A DNA stretch of 32,317 nucleotides from Pseudomonadota bacterium. Its GTDB lineage: Bacteria; Pseudomonadota; Gammaproteobacteria; Pseudomonadales; Moraxellaceae. The DNA lies in NCBI GenBank assembly GCA_021804355.1, contig JAJZHP010000019.1, positions 1-32,317 on the forward strand, read 5' to 3'. Both the position numbers and the translations under genes were made by a program. Positions 16,798 to 27,314 of this stretch are shown here, in pieces. The notes beneath the pieces are model-generated. The model saw nothing but the letters and a program-made list of their open reading frames with translations, was not told the DNA's origin and ran no database searches. Within the stretch, counting starts at the first letter, position 1. Every line of letters begins with the position of its first letter.

Positions 16798-18126
16798 TCA
16801 AAAAAGCTCGATACGCGGAGCATCTCCGGTTGATGGTTGGCTAGTGCTCCCTGCATAGGCATCACCCGTCATGGTGCGGTGAGTTTCTCGTTGACTCTCC
16901 ATGGCATAGCCTTCAAACAGACGATCTAACTGTTGTGTCACATCATCAATGGCTATCGGCGAAATCAGCGCATCAGGCAGTTGTGCTGCCAGCGCCTGCA
17001 AATGCTCATCGAGACATTTTAGAGAGCTTGTTACCTGTTCCATTTGCTGGCGCGTGATATCTTGAAACTGAAGTTCTCCCAGCAAGGACATCACCAAACG
17101 ATGCACCTCAGCAGAACCGTGATCCAGACTTTGCGTAAACGTGATGACATAGCTGGCCAAGCGATGAAAGTCCTGACCGGTTGCCTGCAACTGATCCGCA
17201 ATGGCTTTAAACTCCTGTATCTGCTGCTCAGCATCACGCAGTCCCATGCGTTCACTGAGCTCCATGCGAATGGATGAACCCACATGAGTAATACCCTGCG
17301 TGATCTGCGAAGCTGCCTGCCCGGTTTGCTCGGCCAGTTTGCGTACTTCATCGGCAACGACGGCAAAGCCACGGCCCTGCTCGCCAGCGCGCGCTGCTTC
17401 AATAGCCGCATTGAGGGCTACCAGATTGATCCGCTTGGCGACATCTTGTATCAAGGTGGCTAGCGGGGATAACGAGACGACCTGATTGACCACCAACTCA
17501 AAGGTTTGGCGTGCGGTCTCAATATCTTCAGCACGCTGCGTCTGATAATTTTTAAGTTGGGTCAACGCCGACAGATTGCGTTGAATTTGACTATCCACAT
17601 TACTTGCCAGGTCATCAGAATAATTTTTAGCACTACTTACCTCCTTTAACACCGCATCGAGGGCATCCTGAATGGCATTGGCTCTGCCGACGATACTGAC
17701 GGCTGCCGTCTCAGTAAAATCAGCCACTTGCTTGAGATGCCCGCGCAGTACGCCGTTAAACCCAGGTATATTCCGCAGCTGCGTTTCTACTCTGTCAAAA
17801 TTACTGATGGCCATGGCCTGTAGCCTGGCCATCATTTGTAAAGTTCTGGACTGGCTGCCCTGCAGTTTGTTCAAAAAGAAGCGTTGAACCACGTACTCAT
17901 AAAAAGTTATCAAGGCTACAAATATGACACTGACGCCGACCTCAGCAAGGCTGTCATAGCGTGAATTTAGATGTTGATCGTGAACATGGTGAATAACGTG
18001 TAATGCCAGCCAAATCAGCAGCCCTTGCGCCAGCAAGGCGATGATGCGAACGAATATATTCAACTTCGTCTGATACAAATTGACCATGGGATGTTTGAAA
18101 TCAGGAATTTTCTTAGGGCTGCTCAT
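16798..18126 (-). CDS. Short membrane methyl-accepting-type receptor with a CheZ-like motif and RIELF tail
   Basis: A 442-residue protein with two membrane segments (about 24-45 and 63-85) joined by a short loop of about 17 residues, so it has no extracytoplasmic sensor domain and no HAMP. A coiled coil follows, then the receptor signalling hairpin tip around 225-268 ([18 protein letters not shown], then [16 protein letters not shown]), which contacts CheA and CheW. After the hairpin comes LQFQDITRQ, with D356 and Q360 spaced as the catalytic Asp and Gln of CheZ (FQDLTGQ). The protein ends in RIELF, the same last five residues as CheD of this operon, and not in a NWETF-like CheR/CheB tether. 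Its ATG overlaps the hemerythrin stop (ATGA), so the hemerythrin is its probable input partner. The phosphatase role is inference. Confidence 0.88.
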
Positions 18127-18536
18127 TGTGGTCCCATCCCTTCATGATGCATGCCGCGGGATTGAATCGCCCGCCCCATGGCTTTGTCCATGCTCAGAAT
18201 ATGCCCTATCCACCATGACTCCAAAAAATCAACCATGGCTTTGGGATCCGTGTATATATCGAGTTCTGCCACCCAAACCCAGTAGTTGCGGTGCTCCCTG
18301 ATATGCCTGGATCGACCCGACCATTCAGGAATAGTCAACTCCATGAGAACTTCCTCATGCATAAAGTGGCTGGCTGCGTACGAATTCAGCCGGGCTTGCC
18401 ACACTTCCATATTGTTTATCCGCCCTGACCTAGCCAACGCCGTGATGCGATTGATCATTTGTAGTAAGTAACGATGTTCTTGATCAATCTGATTGATGCC
18501 TATTTCACACTCATGTGTCCAGAGCAACTGCGCCAT
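18123..18536 (-). CDS. Bacteriohemerythrin, diiron oxygen-binding protein
   Basis: A single hemerythrin domain of 137 residues that binds O2 (or senses it) at a non-heme diiron site. All expected ligands are visible: H21 (DQEH), H57 and E61 (HFMHEE), H78 and H82 (HIREH), H112 and D117 (HILSMD). The N-terminal [18 protein letters not shown] matches the family opening. The last 15 residues are His/Met/Gly-rich. It is translated between cheD (16 bp upstream) and the second receptor (ATGA overlap), so it is probably a sensor or oxygen-delivery subunit for that receptor. In Desulfovibrio DcrH the same two modules are fused in one chain. A storage or detoxifying role is the alternative. Confidence 0.93.
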
Positions 18537-18552: not shown

Positions 18553-19131
18553 TTAAAAAAGCTCGATGCGACGTATCGGGGTGGGGGTATCTATGCCTGT
18601 ATTTTGCCAACGCCATTCGCGTTTTACCGCTTCCTCGACATCTGGCGTAGCTACCGCCATACGGCGGCAAAATACATCGCCATCAGGTACGGCGATCACT
18701 TTGCGTGAACAGGCTCCCCCTAAGTCCTCCGCCACCAAAGCTATACCTTCACGCTGTAGCCATGCTCGCGCAAACTTCGCGTTATCTTCACCAATCATGG
18801 TCTGTAGGGAATGAACCACCGTCCCTCCCCCAAAGGCTTTGGCAACTAGCCTTGACTTATTTGCTCCGCGTGCCAGCATGGCATTGACCAGCACTTCCAT
18901 AGCATAGTCGCCCGCCAACACCACATCAGGATCATCTTCCCCGCCTGAATGCCGTCGTGGCAGCAAAAAATGGTTCATGCCGCATAGACCCAGACGCGGT
19001 TCATACAAGCAGACAGCGACACAGGACCCCAGAATCGTCGCTATGGGTCTATCGCTTTCAACAGCCCACCCGCCGGGATGTAGAGTTTTTGCCTGCCGTT
19101 CCAGGGCACGAGTATCCACAGGCTCAGGCAT
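18553..19131 (-). CDS. cheD: Chemoreceptor glutamine deamidase CheD
   Basis: CheD deamidates receptor glutamines and, in species with CheC, is a feedback regulator. The 192-residue protein carries the catalytic C37 in [13 protein letters not shown] and H54 in GMNHFLLP, followed by KAFGGG. It overlaps the end of cheB by 8 bp. The C-terminal stretch after the core domain ([11 protein letters not shown], then [13 protein letters not shown]) is an extension; its last five residues are identical to those of the second receptor, with the same codons for IELF. No cheC is nearby, so CheD here works without its usual partner or with one encoded elsewhere. Confidence 0.94.
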
Positions 19132-20170
19132 GGCGGCTGTACTCCATCAAGGCTTGAGCCACCACCGGCAATGGTAAGACTCTATCGACAGCTCCACGCT
19201 TAATTGCTTCCTGCGGCATACCGAAAACCACACAGGTAGAAGCATCCTCCGCGATAGTACTGGCTCCGGCCGCATGCATGGCCAAAAGTCCTCGCGCACC
19301 ATCATCTCCCATTCCGGTTAGGATCACGCCCAAGGCGTTAGCTCCAGCCGTTTCAGCGACCGACCGAAACAGCACATCGACCGAAGGCTTGTGCCGGTTA
19401 ACAACAGGACCGTCGCTAACCTGCACCAGATAGCGGGCACCACTACGGCGCAACACCATATGACGTCCACCCGGGGCAATCAGCACATGACCGGTCATAA
19501 CCCGGTCACCATCCACAGCTTCCTTGACTTGCACCTGACAAAGACTATTCAGCCGCTCGGCAAACATGGCGGTAAACTTCTCTGGCATGTGTTGTACAAT
19601 GACAATGCCACAGACCGATCGGGGCAAACGAACCAAAATTGCTTCCAGCGCCTGAGTTCCTCCTGTAGAAGTGCCGATCGCGATGACCCGCTCTGTCGTG
19701 CTAGTCATGGCAGGCTGATCCAGAAGAGGTTTTGTGGCCTGAGGAGCTCGTCGTAACCGGCGAGGCTCCACCTCAGCCGCTGCTCGGATAGCACCAATAA
19801 AATTACTGGCTTCATCCTCAAGAAAACTGTTCAACCCCAAACGGGGCTTGGTAATAATGCTGACTGCACCCGCAGCCATAGCTTCAACGGCCGTCTGGGT
19901 CCCGCGCTCGGTCAGCGTGGAACAAATGATGACCGGTGTAGGTCGCTCCTCCATGATCTTGCGCAAAAAGGAAAGACCATCCATGCGCGGCATTTCAATA
20001 TCCAGCACAATGACATCGGGCCATTCTTTTTTCATGGCTTCCATGGCAAAAAGTGGATCACTCACGGCTGCAATCAACTCGATCGCTGGATCTTTGGCCA
20101 GAATATCGCGGGCAGCTCGTCTGACCACTGCAGAGTCGTCCACCACCATTAATCTGATCTTTCTAGCCAT
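19124..20170 (-). CDS. cheB: Receptor methylesterase/deamidase response regulator CheB
   Basis: CheB removes methyl groups from receptor glutamates when phosphorylated by CheA. The 348 residues comprise a receiver domain (about 4-125) with acidic pocket D11-D12, phospho-acceptor D57 and K108, a linker, and a methylesterase domain (about 158-345). The catalytic triad is S168 (GTSTGG), H194 (QHMPEKFT) and D290 (GMGDDG). It starts 10 bp after the cheR stop with a GAGG that overlaps that stop, and ends 8 bp inside cheD. Confidence 0.96.
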
Positions 20171-20180
20171 GGCAGATGCC

Positions 20181-20993
20181 TCAAGTTACCCGGGCATAGA
20201 TCGTGGGCTTGACCTGCCGTAAACCGTTAACCAAACCATTCAGCGACTCCGAATGGCCGACCACCAGATACCCCTGCGGTTTCAAACGCGCCAACAACTT
20301 ATGCACGACTTCGCGTTTGGTCTCAGGGTCAAAATAAATCATGACGTTACGCAGAAAAATTACATCATAAAAGTCAGCCCCCAATATAGGCTCCATCAGG
20401 TTGCAAGTCGCAAAAGAAGTATGTTCTCGCAACCGTTTATCCATTAAAAACGTACCCGATTGTGATCCCACCCCTTTTAGGCAATACTTTTTTCGGTAAA
20501 CCTCAGGCAAACCACGACTACGCGTATCGTCATAATGACCGCGTCGTGCCGATTCAACCACCATCTCGCTGATATCTGTCCCGGTCACGCACCACGTAGC
20601 GCCTAAGCCCAGAACCTCCGCCAGCACCATGGCCAAGGTATACACTTCTTCTCCCGTACTGCAGGCTGCACTCCATAGGGAGGGCGCCGTCACCTCCCGC
20701 GAACGCGCCCATGCCGCCAGCCATTCAAAATGTTTCTCCTCTCGAAAAAAGTAGGTTTCATGCGTAGTCAGTAAATCGATCATCCGCTGCCATTCCGTAG
20801 AGTCCTGGCCTGCGGTAACATAACGGTAATAGGCTGAAAAGCTTTCTAAACCCAGATGACGCAAACGCTGACTTAATCGCCCCACGAGCAGTTGGCGCTT
20901 AGCATCGCTCATGGCGATGCCTGCTACCTTGTGGATGAGCTGTCGGAAAGCGGTAAATTCGCGATCCGACATCTCAACCTGCAAGATACTCAT
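20181..20993 (-). CDS. cheR: Receptor methyltransferase CheR
   Basis: SAM-dependent methylation of receptor glutamates. The 270 residues show the N-terminal helical domain (about 8-75), then the Rossmann domain with [11 protein letters not shown], the SAM site [15 protein letters not shown], the TDIS motif, and [17 protein letters not shown]. Its start overlaps the cheW stop as ATGA, with GGAG 7 bases upstream. The first receptor of this operon ends in DFVRY, which fits the aromatic-x-x-aromatic pattern of CheR/CheB-binding tails, so it is the likely main substrate. Confidence 0.96.
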
Positions 20994-21550
20994 ACACGCT
21001 CCGCCGTGAGAGCTGACTCCGCTCCAGCTTCGACTGCACCATCACGTGCTGCCAGCAACAGGGCAATTTCATCGATAGACAAGACACGTTCTATATTGAG
21101 CAAAATAACAAAACGGCTGCCTATTTTGCTCATACCCTGAATAAAATCAGCGCGGATACGTGCGCCAAAGGAGGGAGGGGGCTCTATGTCACTGGAGGCC
21201 ACATCCAGCACCTCAGAGACGGAGTCCACCACCATACCCATATCATGACGCCCATCATCCAGTCGCAGTTCAATAATGACAATACAGGTGCGCCGCCCTA
21301 TGGTCTGCCGCTCTCGCCCGAATCGGGCACCTAAATCGATCACCGGTACCACACTACCGCGCAGATTGATCACGCCACGGATAAACGATGGCATCAGGGG
21401 GATTTCCGTCACCTGACCGTACTCAATGATTTCCTTGACGTTCAATATGCCTACGGCAAACATCTCTCCATTTAGCAGAAAGGTCAAAACCTGCTGTATG
21501 GTATCCGCCGTTGCTACGGACGTGCCACGAACGGGAGTTATCTGTCCCAT
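20990..21550 (-). CDS. cheW: Chemotaxis adaptor CheW
   Basis: CheW couples receptors to CheA. The 186-residue protein has one CheW domain (about 18-165), with QVLTFLLNGEMFAVGI, the region FIRGVINLRGSVVPVIDL, and a C-terminal segment around FIQGMSKIGSRFVILLNIE. The last 20 residues are alanine- and glutamate-rich and probably disordered. It begins 17 bp after the receptor stop with AGGAG 9 bases before the ATG, and overlaps cheR. It is the only cheW in the window. Confidence 0.96.
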   Translation of the reverse strand: MGQITPVRGTSVATADTIQQVLTFLLNGEMFAVGILNVKEIIEYGQVTEIPLMPSFIRGVINLRGSVVPVIDLGARFGRERQTIGRRTCIVIIELRLDDGRHDMGMVVDSVSEVLDVASSDIEPPPSFGARIRADFIQGMSKIGSRFVILLNIERVLSIDEIALLLAARDGAVEAGAESALTAERV

Positions 21551-21567: not shown

Positions 21568-24336
21568 TCAGTAACGCACAAAATCGCCTTCATCCAGGGA
21601 TGCCGCCGCTGCCGGTTGACGGCTGCTACGTTGAGCAGTAGCAGCAGCGGGTCGGCTCGCTGAACTGCGCTTGGATGCTACCGGAGCATGGCCTCTATCC
21701 ACCCGGAAGAATCCCACCAGCTGTTGCAGTTGCGCAGACTGCGCCCCCAACTCCTCTGCCGTAGCCGCCAACTCTTCCGATGCTGAGGCATTTTGTTGTG
21801 TGGCCTTATTTAACTGCCCCATGGCGCCGTTGATTTGTGCTACCCCTGTGGATTGTTCATCCGAAGCTGCGGCAATCTCCTGCACCAGATCCGAAGTTTT
21901 CTTGATAGAGGGCACCATAGCTCCCAGCAAACTACCCGCCTTCTCGGCCAGAGCCACTGAAGATCCCGCCAGATTACCAATTTCCTGGGCGGCCACTTGA
22001 GAGCGTTCAGCCAGTTTGCGTACTTCTGCAGCCACCACAGCAAAACCTTTGCCATGCTCACCGGCCCGGGCAGCTTCAATCGCTGCATTCAACGCCAGCA
22101 GGTTCGTCTGGTAAGCAATATCGTCAATGATGCCTATACGATTGGCAATTTGTTTCATGGCCGATACCGTCTCCGTCACAGCTCCTCCCCCCTCTTGGGC
22201 TTCCGTAGCTGCCTGGGTGGCAATATTGTTGGTCACCTTGGCGTTATCAGCGTTCTGATTGATTGATGAGGTCATCTGTTCCATGGCCGCTGTAGTCTCT
22301 TCCACAGAAGCGGCTTGTTCGGAAGAGGACTGCGACAGGGACTGGGCCGTTGACGATACCTGCCCAGCGGCATTACTCAGGTCATCGGCAGCGATATTGA
22401 TTTGCGCCAGCGTTTCAGAAAGTTTTTCGATAGACGTATTGACGGCAAGCTTCATGGCATCAAAATCTCCTTGATAGCTACGCGTAATCTTTTGCGTCAT
22501 ATCACCAGCAGCCATGGCCTCCATAACACGTTTGACATCATTAAACGGCTCAACAACGGAATCTAAGGTACTGTTCATGCCTTCCACGATTTTGCGGAAG
22601 TCACCACGGTGTGCAGGCGCATCAGCTCGCGTTTCAAGCACGCCTGCCAGTGCCGCTGCACTTAAACTATTGGCATCAACGATCAGTGCCTTGATGTTGT
22701 TTCGTACCTGTTCAATGGTTTCATTGATAAAGGCTTTTTTGCCAGGGAAAGTTTCAAGAGGTGCATCCAGATTACCTTCACCAAATTCCTTGATGCAGGC
22801 CATCGCCTTCTTCTTCACCGCAATATGCCCAAACACCATGGTGTTGACACCTCGGGCCATCGCACCAAAATCACCCTTGAAGCGACCTTCATCAATCTTG
22901 ATATCGATATCACCCAGATCATGTTCATGCGACATATGGTTCATGTCAGCGATAAAGCTCTTGATGTTGGTACGCATAGCTTCGATATTGTCGTTAATGA
23001 ACGCTTTCTTACCGGGGAATTTCTCAAGAGGTGCATCAAAGTTACCATCACCAAATTCCTTGATGCAGGCCATTGCCTTCTTCTTCACCGCGATATGACC
23101 AAACACCATGCCGTTGACACCCTTGGCCATCACGGCAAAATCACCCTTGAAGCGACCTTCATCAATCTTGATATCGATATCACCCAGATCATGTTGCTGT
23201 GACATATGAGCCATATCAGCTATGAAACTTTTGGTATTGGTGCGTAAAGTTTCTATATGGTCATTGATAAACGCTTTCTTACCGGGGAATTTCTCAAGAG
23301 GTGCATCAAAGTTACCTTCACCAAATTCTTTGATACAAGCCATTGCCTTCTTCTTCACCGCGATATGACCAAACACCATACCGTTGACACCCTTGGCCAT
23401 GTTGGCAAAATCATTTTTGAACTGGGACTCATCAATCTTGACATCAATATCGCCGGCATCATGTTCACGTGACATTCGATTCATGTCGCTCATCAATAGC
23501 CGTAACGCTGATTGCACAGCAGCTATCGATGCCATCACACTGTGGCGATCTTGGGGAAGCAGACTGATCTCCGTGGTTAAATCTCCCTCGGCAAGGCGCC
23601 GCGTCGCCTGTTGTAATAAAACCGGCTCGGCTCCAAGTTGCGCCATCAGACTACGCAGGATGCTATAGCCGAAGGCAGCTAGCAAAGCAGCCATGGCAAC
23701 AGCCAGTGTTATCATGATATTTAAGGTATGACTTTGTGAAGTATGACCTGCCTCAACTGAGGCTGTGGCATCCGTCGCTCCCGAGGAAATCAACTGAGCA
23801 ATGGCCGTATCCGCCGTACTAAATTTAGGTGATGCTTCATCGACACCACGGATAAAGGCTGCAAGCAACTCCGAATGCCCTGGCGTATTATTAGCTGCAT
23901 CCTGAGATGATAGCTGTTCCATCTGGCCACGATTACGGGTGGCCAGCATACGGTAGTCATTCAGAGCCGCCTCAAACTGAGTCCATTGTTGCTGCTCTTG
24001 AGCAGAATGCTCGAAATGTACCCAGGTTGCTTCAGCGGAGCCCACATCTTTCCATCCTGCATCGATAGACTGAACATGCCCCATTAATCGACCTGAATCT
24101 GCATGTCCCGACGCTAATTCTGCATACGCGCCTAGCATGTTTAAGCGGACATTCTGTAATCCCGTACGCAATTGCGTCAAAGCCTGCATAGAGGATATTT
24201 CGTTATTACCCACCTGATCGAAAATAGCCTGATCACTTTCAAAACCACGAAAGGCCATAAAAGCCACCAGCATCAGGGAGGCTAGTGCCACACCGATCAA
24301 AGACAGTAGTTTATACCTGACTAACATAGTACTCAT
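21568..24336 (-). CDS. Methyl-accepting receptor with three tandem 90-residue HAMP-like repeats
   Basis: A 922-residue transmembrane receptor. TM1 (about 9-29) and TM2 (about 205-225) enclose a four-helix-bundle-like periplasmic domain (30-204). A HAMP domain (about 226-282) is followed by three tandem copies of a 90-residue unit (285-374, 375-464, 465-554), a diverged further HAMP region (about 555-640), and the signalling domain (about 650-875; tip [20 protein letters not shown], then [15 protein letters not shown]). The repeat carries [16 protein letters not shown] and [17 protein letters not shown]; poly-HAMP relays of this kind are known in other receptors. The Ala/Ser/Arg-rich tail ends DEGDFVRY, a match to the x-aromatic-x-x-aromatic CheR/CheB tether. 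It lies between cheA and cheW, so it is probably the main receptor of the cluster. Confidence 0.95.
22675..23484 (-). repeat. Three in-frame 270-bp tandem repeats inside the receptor gene
   Basis: Units are at 23484-23215, 23214-22945 and 22944-22675. Long blocks are identical at exact 270-bp spacing, for example the segment at 22781-22800 recurs at 23051 and, with one change, at 23321. Each unit encodes 90 residues. The middle and last units are most alike in their first half, the first and middle in their second half, which suggests recombination among copies. The unit number could vary between strains. Confidence 0.95.
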
Positions 24337-24431: not shown

Positions 24432-26597
24432 TCAGGCCCCCGTGAGTAAACGTTCTCGTGTTACCAAACCACCTTCCGATTGATGCGTACTGAGACGCAC
24501 CAGCGACTGCACATCCAGAATCAACGCCACTTCCCCTGAACCCAAAATAGTTGATCCACTCAAGCATCGTTCGTTGCGAAACAACGCCCCTAGCGGTTTA
24601 ATAACCGTCTGAAATTCCCCAAATAAATGATCCACCACCAAACCCGCTCGCCCACCTACATGTCTGACCACCACCACATTGCGACGACGTGGTGGTTCAT
24701 CCTGATGGTTAAACAAAATTCTGAGATCAATGAGAGGCAACACTTCACCACGCAGATTCAAAAATGCCATCGGCTCTTCAGCATGAGATAATTCCACGCA
24801 CTCGACGACAGCATCTAGCGGCACCACATAAGAAGCATCAGACACACCTGTCAAAAATCCATCGATAATGGCTAATGTCAGTGGCAGTCGAATGGTAAAT
24901 TTCGAACCCTTGCCTTGCTCGCTAGCCACCTCAACAGAACCGCGCAAAGCCTGCACATTCTTGCGTACCACATCCATGCCTACACCACGGCCTGATATAT
25001 TGCTGACTTGATCCGCGGTACTGAAGCCAGGTTCAAAAATCAGGTTGATGATTTCTTTATCGCTAAGTACCTGGGTAGCATGGATCAGCCCCTTCTCTAC
25101 GGCCTTATCATGTACTCGGGTGGTATCGATACCACGCCCATCATCAGAGACTTCGATCACGATACTGCCAGAATCGTGGCGTGCTGACAGGGCCACCGTA
25201 CCCATGGCTGTTTTGCCACAAGCCAGTCGTTCGGCAGAGGGCTCAATGCCGTGATCGATGGCATTACGGATCAAGTGCATCAGCGGATCAGCTATTTTCT
25301 CGACCACTGACTTATCCAGCTCAGTGTCGCCTCCACTGACCACCAGATCGATATCCTTGCCCAGTTCCTTGGCCACATCGCGAACTACCCGATAAAATCT
25401 GCGAAAAGTTTCACCGATTTGAACCATATGCAGCTGCAATGCTGAATCACGTATGTTTTCTACCAGCCTGCCCAGCAACGACGTAGCTTCCACCAGAGCT
25501 GATTGTCCGGACTGACGCGCCAGCAAACTCGCGGAGGCTCCTGCGATCACCAATTCACCGACCAGATCAATCAGCTGGTCCAGTTTATCGGCCTTGACAC
25601 GGATCAGTCGGGCATCGGCTGATGCCTTGTCGTTGACCTGTTTCTGGCGATTAACCGCCGCATCGACAATCTCCGGTTGCACCACATGCTGGCGCACCAG
25701 AATTTCACCTAAAGGGGGGGGCATACTACCTTGCTCGGTCACAGCATCCTGCCCACGCAACCCTTGCGCCAGCTCATCCGGAGTCAGCGCGCCTGAACGC
25801 ACCAGCATTTCCCCCAAACGCATATGTTCTTCAGGCAAATCATCAATACGATTAACAAACTCACCTATTCGCGCTGGAGGAGGCAAAATGCTGAGTTCAC
25901 AATCATCGCGGCAGAACATGAATACTTTCTCTATGGCATCCTTTCCTGCCACGCTACGCAGCACCACATCAAAACCCAAGTAACAACTCTCCGGGTCCAT
26001 GGCATCGGCCATAGGTAACTCATGGGTGAGCGCCTGAATCTGCAGTACCTCTCCTAACGTAGCGAGATGGCGTAAAAAAGCCAAAGGTTCCATACCGTTA
26101 CGCAGGATGTCTTTTCCAAACATCACACGAATCAGCCAGCTATCTTCAGCTGAGGGAGGATGCTCGATATCCATGTTGACATCAGGACGCGCACTCGGCG
26201 CAGGATGATCAGCACCATGAAATGCTTTCAGCATGTCCAAAACAGCATCGGTTTCAGGCTGCAGTTCTGCATCTGCCTCAAGTTTGCCCGCCGCAACCCT
26301 ATTCAGCATCACGCTTAAATGATCGCCGGCGCGCAATAACACGCCGATCAAACTTTCCGAAATTTCTAAGTGATGGGTACGCAAGTCTTCCAGCAGACTC
26401 TCCAGGACATGCGTATAACGTTCGACATGCCCAAGATCAACCACGCCGGCACCGCCTTTGATGGTATGCGCTGCACGGAAGATGGCGTGGATAGTCTCCT
26501 CATCCCGATCCCCCTGCTCCAAACGCAGCAGCCCTGATTCCATGGCTTCCAGGAGTTCTTGAGATTCTTGAATAAATACGGTGTAGATCTCATCCAT
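24432..26597 (-). CDS. cheA: Histidine kinase CheA with tandem MshEN-like motifs
   Basis: The central kinase that phosphorylates CheY and CheB. The 721 residues comprise an Hpt domain (about 1-105; phospho-acceptor H44 in AAHTIKGGAG), a P2-like domain (about 152-240; WLIRVMFGKD and LGEVLQIQAL), an unusual linker with two 24-residue motifs (260-283 and 295-318) of the RLGxxLVxxG type, the dimerisation domain (about 330-395; LDQLIDLVGELVIAG), the ATPase domain (N box HLIRNAIDHGIE at 441-452, G1 DDGRGID at 485-491, G2 GRGVGMDVV) and a CheW-like domain (about 575-710). No receiver domain is attached. It overlaps the STAS gene by 8 bp. The two linker motifs follow the pattern of MshEN c-di-GMP-binding domains; binding is unproven. 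Confidence 0.96.
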   Translation of the reverse strand: MDEIYTVFIQESQELLEAMESGLLRLEQGDRDEETIHAIFRAAHTIKGGAGVVDLGHVERYTHVLESLLEDLRTHHLEISESLIGVLLRAGDHLSVMLNRVAAGKLEADAELQPETDAVLDMLKAFHGADHPAPSARPDVNMDIEHPPSAEDSWLIRVMFGKDILRNGMEPLAFLRHLATLGEVLQIQALTHELPMADAMDPESCYLGFDVVLRSVAGKDAIEKVFMFCRDDCELSILPPPARIGEFVNRIDDLPEEHMRLGEMLVRSGALTPDELAQGLRGQDAVTEQGSMPPPLGEILVRQHVVQPEIVDAAVNRQKQVNDKASADARLIRVKADKLDQLIDLVGELVIAGASASLLARQSGQSALVEATSLLGRLVENIRDSALQLHMVQIGETFRRFYRVVRDVAKELGKDIDLVVSGGDTELDKSVVEKIADPLMHLIRNAIDHGIEPSAERLACGKTAMGTVALSARHDSGSIVIEVSDDGRGIDTTRVHDKAVEKGLIHATQVLSDKEIINLIFEPGFSTADQVSNISGRGVGMDVVRKNVQALRGSVEVASEQGKGSKFTIRLPLTLAIIDGFLTGVSDASYVVPLDAVVECVELSHAEEPMAFLNLRGEVLPLIDLRILFNHQDEPPRRRNVVVVRHVGGRAGLVVDHLFGEFQTVIKPLGALFRNERCLSGSTILGSGEVALILDVQSLVRLSTHQSEGGLVTRERLLTGA

Positions 26598-26928
26598 GAC
26601 TTGGCTCCGATTCTGCTAGCAAAACCAGAGGATCACCAAAGAAAGCCGCCAGGTTGAGAAACTCAAATACGGCTATGACAGCATCCGAATGCGCCACGAT
26701 ATGCATTTCATGGCGCTGTTGCAGACTCTCCTGCTTAGCCAGCATCAGCAGTTGTACGCCTGCGGTATCCAGGTCATTTACGTTGGAAAGATCCAGCTCC
26801 ACGCGAGCATGCTGGCGAACAGCATCTACCAGAGCAACCTTGATAGCAGTAGCATCATAAATACTTAAATCGCCCTGAATACGCAGTCGAACTGAAGCTT
26901 CGCCGCAAGTTTCCTGATGAATTTCCAT
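26590..26928 (-). CDS. STAS domain protein (anti-sigma-factor-antagonist type)
   Basis: A single STAS domain of 112 residues (MEIHQE to PSHG) with GDLSIYDATAIK, a central VELDLSNVNDLDTAG and a final hydrophobic helix. In SpoIIAA-like proteins the phosphorylated serine sits in D-S-x-G; here the motif is D-T-A-G, so a threonine occupies the site. I chose the ATG at 26928 because GAGG is 8 bases before it; the in-frame ATG at 26934 is only 2 bases from the same GAGG. It lies between cheY and cheA, overlapping cheA by 8 bp. STAS proteins in che operons may modulate CheA or a partner-switching output; the partner here is unknown. Confidence 0.85.
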   Translation of the reverse strand: MEIHQETCGEASVRLRIQGDLSIYDATAIKVALVDAVRQHARVELDLSNVNDLDTAGVQLLMLAKQESLQQRHEMHIVAHSDAVIAVFEFLNLAAFFGDPLVLLAESEPSHG

Positions 26929-26948
26929 CGCCATTACCTCTTTTGCGC

Positions 26949-27314
26949 TTAGCGCAGCACCATACCCAGCGTTGCGATTAAATCTTCCGCTGTTACCGGT
27001 TTGACCAACCAGCCACTCGCCCCCGCTGCCTTAGCTTCAGCTCGCTTGGACTGCTGAGATTCAGTCGTCAAAAACAGAATGGGCATAAACTTAAAGTTGG
27101 ATAACTGACGTACTTTTTTGATGAACTCAATGCCATTCATCCCCGGCATATTGAGATCTGTAATGAGCAGGTCCACCTTTTTGCCAGCCTGAAATAACTT
27201 CATGGCATCCTCGGCACTGCGCGCCTGTTCCACGGCATATCCAGCTTTAAGAAGAATATTGGATACTGACAACAAGATAGTTGCCGAATCATCGACCAAC
27301 ATGATAGTTCGCAT
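26949..27314 (-). CDS. cheY: CheY-type single-domain response regulator
   Basis: A 121-residue receiver domain and the likely output of CheA. Acidic pocket D8-D9, phospho-acceptor D53 (LLITDLNMPGMNG), T83-T84 (FLTTES) and K105 (KPV) are all in place. The segment before K105 reads GASGWLVKPV, as in the stand-alone regulators that head many non-enteric che clusters. AGAGG lies 8 bases before the ATG. It is the first gene of the operon, after 504 bp of non-coding DNA. Flagellar switch binding cannot be assumed, since no motility gene is present here. Confidence 0.93.
   Translation of the reverse strand: MRTIMLVDDSATILLSVSNILLKAGYAVEQARSAEDAMKLFQAGKKVDLLITDLNMPGMNGIEFIKKVRQLSNFKFMPILFLTTESQQSKRAEAKAAGASGWLVKPVTAEDLIATLGMVLR

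Follow-up and report, generated by a model that had tools for sequence, protein, structure and literature searches.

We analysed a chemosensory operon on contig JAJZHP010000019.1 of a Pseudomonadota bacterium. The window, as we call the whole stretch of DNA analysed, is this entire contig (C6 in our numbering; 32,317 bases), which belongs to a genome of 2.6 Mb in 174 contigs. The operon encodes a short chemoreceptor of 442 amino acids (16798–18126, reverse strand, as are all window features given below), and the returning helix of this receptor carries a stretch, LQFQDITRQ, that resembles the catalytic region of the phosphatase CheZ. Homology of at least the C-terminal helix to that of CheZ best explains the likeness and is well supported by profile comparisons. 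We hold, with somewhat better than even confidence, that the receptor carries a CheZ-like module, the most likely task of which would be to dephosphorylate the operon's own phosphorylated CheY (CheY-P; cheY at 26949–27314, named from its translation) as the off-switch of an F7-like system.

Receptor anatomy and motif

A Pfam search placed the signalling domain of methyl-accepting chemotaxis proteins (MCPs; MCPsignal, PF00015) at residues 198–336 of the translated open reading frame (ORF), with an expectation value (E) of 1.6e-26, identifying the protein as an MCP. Two hydrophobic stretches near the N-terminus, recognised by eye, were taken as transmembrane segments. The hairpin tip (residues 239–249; 17380–17412), located from the sequence and the PF00015 match, is presumably the region that meets CheA and CheW, as in known receptors. 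LQFQDITRQ (residues 352–360; 17047–17073) lies past this canonical tip on the returning, C-terminal helix, and its D356 and Q360 fall in register with the two catalytic residues, D and Q, of CheZ. The sequence-only reading of this DNA had put the motif after the signalling hairpin and numbered the two residues in this way; translation and the MCPsignal match bear it out on both. The helix ends at YAMESQR (residues 407–413) and is followed by a variable linker predicted to be disordered (helix end and linker, 16816–16908) and by the C-terminal tail RIELF (residues 438–442; 16801–16815), a putative docking peptide. TETAA (residues 138–142; 17701–17715) stands on the N-terminal helix at roughly the same distance from the tip as the D/Q motif, and it may correspond to T-E-x-A-A in CheZ.

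A single-chain AlphaFold2 model of the receptor, built from nine sequences, was of low confidence (mean predicted local distance difference test score, 65.7; predicted template modelling score, 0.30); it placed the motif in the middle of a helix (residues 297–386) and left the tail disordered. With a confidence this low the model was unsuited to superposition on CheZ, and exposure was judged from helix phase only. Measured from the hydrophobic face on a helical wheel, D and Q lay at 124 and 176 degrees in the receptors, and at 116 and 168 degrees in CheZ. The CheZ arrangement, a D and a Q four residues apart on an exposed face, was thus found by sequence, alignment and helix phase, with exposure deduced from the phase. 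This agrees with the earlier expectation that D356 and Q360 are exposed on one helix face, as judged by helix phase alone rather than from a solved structure.

Comparison of the C-terminal helix with CheZ

For most comparisons, 25 receptors (window protein included), 20 receptors with LQFED, 18 small proteins and 28 CheZ proteins were picked by regular expressions. Because the patterns contained the D and the Q, the presence of both residues in 100% of these sets is by construction, as is QFQD in a receptor-only profile (A2): its frames were selected by that string, and each of the 21 loci given yielded one. The CheZ set came from 31 loci, 28 of which yielded a protein by pattern and three of which were dropped. 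The sequences within all counts are related and not independent.

A C-helix profile of 19 receptors aligned with that of the 28 CheZ proteins at a score of 36.8 (P = 2.9e-5), gapless over 66 columns, and 200 column shuffles of the 19-receptor profile reached at most 24.1. The profile of all 25 receptors scored 43.8 (P = 5.9e-7). Alignments between the two families ran gapless over about 63–66 columns, with the FQD and the Q in register. Control profiles scored 14.4 (C-helices of 23 Aer2-like receptors) and 17.3 (the receptors' own hairpin segment) against CheZ. When the nine motif columns were masked on both sides, the score was 26.1 with the register unchanged, a value that none of 300 heptad-preserving shuffles reached (maximum 24.2).

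Searches with hidden Markov models (HMMs) agreed in one direction, from receptors to CheZ. The HMM of the 25 receptors recovered 26 of the 28 CheZ proteins at E ≤ 1e-3, with a best value of 2.9e-10; the two that it missed stood at 0.0013 and 0.015. Among decoys, the best reversed sequence stood at 6.3e-3 and the sole Aer2-like receptor match at E = 8. Just two decoy ORFs came in at E ≤ 1e-3, and both were module proteins (from loci L120 and L112) outside the sets used. Profile A2, in a search of the class, matched at least 22 cheZ genes at 2.0e-8 to 4.2e-6. The Pfam family of CheZ (PF04344) appeared at E ≤ 10 in 11 of 21 C-terminal regions from the window's family and its relatives, more often than any other family (best E, 0.00046).

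Conservation of the motif

In the window's family, [GS]ELQFQD[IM]TRQQ and a terminal IELF after a variable linker were found in all seven members, the window protein included. An alignment of the 21 C-terminal regions showed Q-F-Q-D, the motif's Q and a Y further on in every sequence, and an M, an R, an H and the terminal I and F in at least 90%. We also looked at 20 weak relatives, which were receptor-length matches picked with their sequences unseen. All 20 had [FY][QE]DxxxQ and all 20 ended in [VI][ED]LF; the pattern permitted Q or E at its last position, and D and Q were present in 20/20, which makes this a fairer count than those from the sets picked by motif. D and Q were constant, but the residue before the D could be Q or E, or Y in the small proteins. 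Nine related loci in named records came from Pseudomonadales/Proteobacteria (six) and Desulfobulbaceae/Deltaproteobacteria (three), in metagenome bins.

None of the seven other MCP-domain matches of this genome carried [FL]QDxxx[QE] after the hairpin. One receptor of the same genome (L007, contig C94) has SFQDITQQ before its hairpin, in the part taken as the sensor region; this is apparently a chance likeness, and because of it the FQDxxxQ string by itself proves nothing. For the window receptor's motif, a chance origin was rejected on conservation and context.

Gene context and proteins without the hairpin

We examined 20 receptor neighbourhoods (L121–L140), a non-random sample of 16 high-scoring matches outside the window's family (two of them from genome G396) and four from within it. 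In 16 of the 20, the receptor gene and a cheY on the same strand were no more than 60 base pairs (bp) apart; the CheY domain started 19–44 bp after the receptor in 12 of these 16 and lay just upstream in the other four (L121, L122, L124, L129). None of 19 other hairpin receptors in these neighbourhoods was within 60 bp of cheY (two were in stretches without cheY).

The module also occurs in proteins without a receptor hairpin. At L123 the gene order is cheR-cheB-receptor-cheY-cheD, and at L120 the slot between cheB and cheY is occupied by a 174-amino-acid protein with QFQDSSRQ and no hairpin. The 18 small proteins (179–236 amino acids; L101–L111 and L113–L119) carry QFYDxxxQ, and 16 of them end in [VIL]x[LFM]F. 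With the L120 protein included, 7/19 had a che gene at most 300 bp away, and for 12/19 there was one somewhere in the fetched stretch. The QFYD proteins matched the receptors at an hhalign score of 67.5; their score against the CheZ profile, 14.9, was not significant, and they are therefore tied to CheZ only through the receptors. No Pfam family was found in the six of the 18 scanned, and no NCBIfam family in the four of the 18 scanned. Adjacency to cheY and the existence of hairpin-less versions both fit a phosphatase-like module.

The C-terminal tail

Across loci L101–L140, an end of the form [VIL]x[LFM]F was found in 20 of the 21 receptors matched to protein P0001 and in 7 of 13 CheD proteins. 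It was absent from CheB (0/25), CheR (0/24), CheW (0/25), CheA (0/19), CheY (0/23), STAS proteins (0/10), hemerythrins (0/5) and multi-HAMP receptor matches (0/26) at the same loci. Nineteen of 636 other ORFs of at least 150 amino acids also had it, and 16 of these 19 were the small QFYD proteins. The ends of receptor and CheD resemble each other within a locus: PRIELF and RRIELF in the window, EEITFF and ADITFF at L123. We infer that the tail may serve to dock a partner shared by these proteins, of which CheY would be the simplest choice. The alternative that RIELF is a CheR-tether pentapeptide was ruled out, as it has I at the second position, where the pattern x-[HFYW]-x(2)-[HFYW] requires an aromatic residue; among the multi-HAMP receptors in these operons, many have an end that fits it.

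A CheX-domain protein on contig C32 of this genome (PF13690, E = 8e-13) ends DIDDLVSSGELEFF, where a stretch resembling the terminus of the genome's CheZ (VDDLLSSLGF) is combined with a receptor-like tail. A second CheX-like frame, on contig C115, had no such tail.

The C32 protein belongs to a second chemosensory-like cluster (L180:3825–8835) with an Hpt/HATPase kinase, a short MCP of 274 amino acids, a CheY-like protein and a 179-amino-acid protein that has no Pfam match and ends GALELF. The tails in this cluster resemble those of the window receptor and CheD.

Phosphatases in the genome and across the class

The sequence-only reading had argued from the lack of cheZ and cheC. For the operon this held: on contig C6 no CheC or CheX match was found at E ≤ 0.001, and the only CheZ match, a sub-threshold one, was the receptor itself. 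It did not extend to cheZ in the genome as a whole. A true CheZ is encoded on contig C68 (PF04344, E = 8e-69), between cheY and cheA, in a cluster that adjoins a sigma-factor gene read as fliA. Two CheX-like matches exceeded the Pfam cut-off, CheA-type matches numbered three, and a whole-genome profile search found no CheC. With CheZ and the two CheX-like matches present, the receptor is not needed through a lack of phosphatases in the cell, and the possibility that it stands in for a phosphatase missing from the genome was ruled out.

Whether genomes with this receptor lack cheZ was asked in a survey of 369 genomes of the class, and most of those with the module have it. We scored the module as present where the receptor C-terminal profile matched at E ≤ 1e-5; it was found in 96/369 genomes, and CheZ over its cut-off in 152/369. 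Leaving out six genomes whose sole module match was the CheZ gene itself, there were 79 genomes with module and CheZ (two of these, G334 and G421, had a single match that was not among the matches listed and were counted as having the module, so that 79 may be 77), 11 with the module and no CheZ, 73 with CheZ only and 206 with neither. That is, 79 of the 90 module genomes also carried CheZ, a positive co-occurrence. An earlier and stricter search had found the module in 13/369 genomes, all 13 with CheZ over the cut-off. Judged by these profile matches, the module family is widespread in the class.

Ten of the 11 module genomes without CheZ were examined; G205, whose match was a fragment of 85 amino acids, was left out. 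CheA was present in nine of the ten, CheX (E ≤ 0.001) in four, one of them below the cut-off, and CheC in two of these four. Five genomes (G215, G229, G278, G314 and G346) had CheA and the module and none of CheZ, CheX and CheC at the thresholds used, and four of the five had FliM. Given such genomes, the principal CheY phosphatase of some species could be the module. The module lay inside the cheA cluster in all five clusters viewed (G229, G278, G314, G346 and G450), which were chosen because module match and CheA stood near each other on one contig; in G215 the module match was on a contig without a CheA match. The module protein of G314 reads LQFADRLKQ and has lost the tail.

Proposed function and alternatives

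In CheZ, an Asp and a Gln position the attacking water in the CheY active site. We propose that the receptor could act similarly. The CheZ-like module would sit at the membrane-proximal end of the signalling hairpin, where, in a receptor dimer, the helices flanking the hairpin would form a four-helix bundle equivalent to that of CheZ, and the signalling tip would stay free to meet CheA and CheW. The flexible linker and the RIELF tail would tether CheY-P, and D356 and Q360 would be inserted in the CheY active site, placing the attacking water as in CheZ. A signal travelling along the bundle, through the receptor itself or from the neighbouring hemerythrin protein, might then tune the activity of the module. 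A receptor-phosphatase had already been suggested by the sequence-only reading; the suggestion gained from the likeness to CheZ beyond the motif (gapless, resistant to masking, specific and with the outward face) and from gene context, and its reasoning from a missing phosphatase holds for the operon only.

A number of results weigh against this function or against the homology behind it, beside the CheZ and CheX-like proteins encoded elsewhere in the genome and the co-occurrence of module and CheZ in the class. PF04344 scored 13.7 bits on the receptor, below its cut-off of 30.7, and the NCBIfam model of CheZ (NF041271) 13.0 against a cut-off of 350; the receptors of L121, L123 and L135 had no PF04344 match at E ≤ 1. 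The receptor is thus outside CheZ as Pfam defines it, yet it plausibly works like CheZ. Searching in reverse, a CheZ HMM recovered 3 of the 25 receptors at E ≤ 1e-3, the best of them at 3.6e-7, and 21 at E ≤ 10, but none of the 20 LQFED receptors or the 18 small proteins; an HMM of the LQFED receptors recovered one of the 28 CheZ proteins. From the AXXFQ motif of CheZ (given, with the CheZ regions, in excerpts of PMC7750401) the receptors keep FQ and have the A at −5 in 16%. The T-G that CheZ has before the Q is mostly absent from them, and the CheZ tail DDLLSSLGF is mostly not kept, IELF or ITFF standing in its place. A PDB sequence search with the C-terminal profile returned coiled-coil-type matches only (designed bundles, viral fusion proteins and one chemoreceptor) and no CheZ, and Foldseek with the low-confidence model listed chemoreceptors first and no CheZ among the best 50 of 295. 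Also, in the four neighbourhoods without adjacency to cheY, which are those of the window's own clade, the receptor follows cheD and the hemerythrin gene at the cheD end.

The N-terminal helix gave a weaker picture, with points on both sides. In 19 receptors its T-E-x-A aligned with that of CheZ at 16.3, against a 95% null of 16.7; in 25 receptors the score against the N-terminal part of CheZ was 13.8, the same value as the 95% null, and when the whole CheZ profile was used the best alignment fell elsewhere. Counted from the tip, [TS][EDQG]x[AST] stood opposite the D in 18/25 receptors and 27/28 CheZ proteins, and at the catalytic level in 3/18 LQFED receptors (two of the 20 without a tip pattern were dropped from these tests) and 0/18 small proteins. 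N-helix profiles of the LQFED receptors and small proteins had no match to the CheZ N-helix (10.9 and 11.1).

The module might instead bind CheY or CheY-P through a CheZ-like surface and the tail without catalysis, as a sink, scaffold or polar anchor. Anatomy and adjacency to cheY would fit this equally well, the tail is common to CheD, which is not known as a phosphatase, and what is seen is the keeping of DxxxQ, from which activity is deduced. We consider binding without catalysis unlikely, since D and Q persist in 20/20 weak relatives though the residue before the D changes among Q, E and Y, and a docking surface would not obviously require both catalytic residues to face outward. Another account takes LQF[QE]D..RQ as an adaptation site, for methylation or deamidation by CheD, or as a packing element, and the likeness to CheZ as a product of shared helical-bundle architecture. 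It can point to the alternation of Q and E before the D (Q in QFQD, E in 18/20 LQFED receptors), to the same tail on CheD, to the helical hairpins of both families and to the weak CheZ-to-receptor search. Ordinary receptor C-helices do not match CheZ (14.4 against 43.8), however, and the residues that are kept, an Asp and a lone Gln, face outward; the Q and its next residue are mostly QI, QQ or QR rather than a fixed Q/E pair, and the motif also occurs in proteins without a receptor hairpin. On these grounds we rate adaptation or packing as rather unlikely, and the methylation-site reading of the motif is disfavoured.

A different target is also conceivable: the module could be a phosphatase whose substrate is the flagellar CheY encoded on contig C68 or some other response regulator, and so couple the F7-like system to motility. 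The 79 of 90 module genomes that also have CheZ speak for such coupling, as does the association of McpA-like receptors with the F6 array in a study cited in PMC7184735 (seen in excerpts). The relatives' gene, in 16/20 neighbourhoods, adjoins the cheY of its own operon, and we regard a target outside the operon as quite improbable. Dephosphorylation of the operon's own CheY-P by the receptor module is the reading we prefer.

Relation to known systems

The receptor resembles CheZ in its FQDxxxQ helix, whose D and Q share one outward-facing side, in a helical hairpin followed by a linker and a C-terminal peptide, in a C-terminal helix that appears homologous in sequence and in a gene that lies beside cheY in most relatives examined. 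Apart from the residue and tail differences given above, it differs in having, in addition, a membrane part at the N-terminus and a receptor hairpin whose arms are about 110 residues long. CheX and CheC are CheY-P phosphatases of a fold unrelated to CheZ. Neither family (PF13690, PF04509) was among the receptor's Pfam matches; the likeness here is the comparable LEFF tail of this genome's CheX-domain protein.

CheT of Sinorhizobium meliloti, as described in excerpts of PMC12654446, is divergent in sequence but has DxxxQ and is predicted to resemble CheZ in structure; it acts on CheY-P, enhancing the dephosphorylation of one CheY. Unlike the window protein it forms complexes with CheR and is not described there as a receptor, and we liken the two by description only.

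Another likeness is to the McpA-like receptors (CttP/PA0180 and VCA1088) in the excerpted text of Ortega et al. (2020; PMC7184735), on which the following statements draw. These are short membrane receptors without a pentapeptide tether. Their genes lie within or next to an F7-type cluster that also encodes an Aer2-like receptor, and they have a highly conserved C-terminus with a non-aromatic residue at the second pentapeptide position, where RIELF of the window has I. Kinship of the window receptor to PA0180 and VCA1088 is suggested by context and tail, set beside these descriptions. McpA-like receptors occur in F7 stage 1 and 2 clusters; no analysed one has a pentapeptide, and one example has valine at the second position. 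Deletion of such a receptor left the F7 array in place. In stage 1 and 2 genomes, cheZ is found only in F6 systems. The role of the McpA-like receptors is called unclear and the reason for their conserved C-terminus is left as a question; the excerpts describe no motif, phosphatase or link to CheZ. A review of Vibrio cholerae (PMC7534058, excerpted) treats such receptors as 24H outliers and mentions no experimental reports on VCA1088. None of the excerpts cited here describes receptors that carry a CheZ-like module. The titles and abstracts searched, which covered few subscription journals or preprints, assign no phosphatase function to such receptors.

If the module is indeed CheZ-like in function, it would answer together the role of the McpA-like receptors, the conservation of their C-terminus and the restriction of cheZ to F6 systems, as these stand in the excerpts of PMC7184735. 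It could also explain how systems with such receptors end a signal, and one chemoreceptor would both feed the kinase and remove phosphate, much like a bifunctional sensor kinase. An origin of CheZ would be suggested as well. A broader scheme, which we put forward tentatively and think doubtful as a whole, has a DxxxQ superfamily of CheY-P phosphatases that share a docking tail with CheD and some CheX; it would comprise the receptor-embedded LQFQD and LQFED forms, the stand-alone L120 type and the QFYD proteins of about 190 amino acids, with CheZ as a branch that lost the hairpin and moved to the flagellar system.

Neighbouring genes and other observations

The genes of the operon run on one strand in the order cheY, STAS, cheA, multi-HAMP receptor, cheW, cheR, cheB, cheD, hemerythrin and short receptor; a GGDEF-EAL gene is on that strand too. 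Domain searches identified the STAS protein (26590–26934), CheA (24432–26597), the multi-HAMP receptor (21568–24336), cheW, cheR and cheB (19124–21550), CheD (18553–19131), whose RRIELF end is like the tail of the short receptor, and the hemerythrin-domain protein (18123–18536) between cheD and the short receptor. By gene content the operon is much like F7 stage 1 as described in the excerpts of PMC7184735. The multi-HAMP receptor ends DFVRY, which fits the CheR-tether pentapeptide pattern, and it contains near-identical repeated segments.

The hemerythrin gene adjoins the receptor gene also in L136–L139, which belong to the window's family, and the hemerythrin-domain protein is a possible input partner of the receptor. 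After its first hydrophobic stretch the receptor has a histidine-rich segment, HVIHHVH (17980–18000), that is only partly kept in orthologues; together with the adjoining hemerythrin, this segment might point to sensing of metal or oxygen by the receptor.

On contig C139 of the same genome (L178) we noted a partial CheA and a CheR, with FliM about 2.5 kilobases further on. The same locus encodes a response regulator fused to a PP2C-type phosphatase-like part and a kinase-like ATPase end, these names being read from the sequence.

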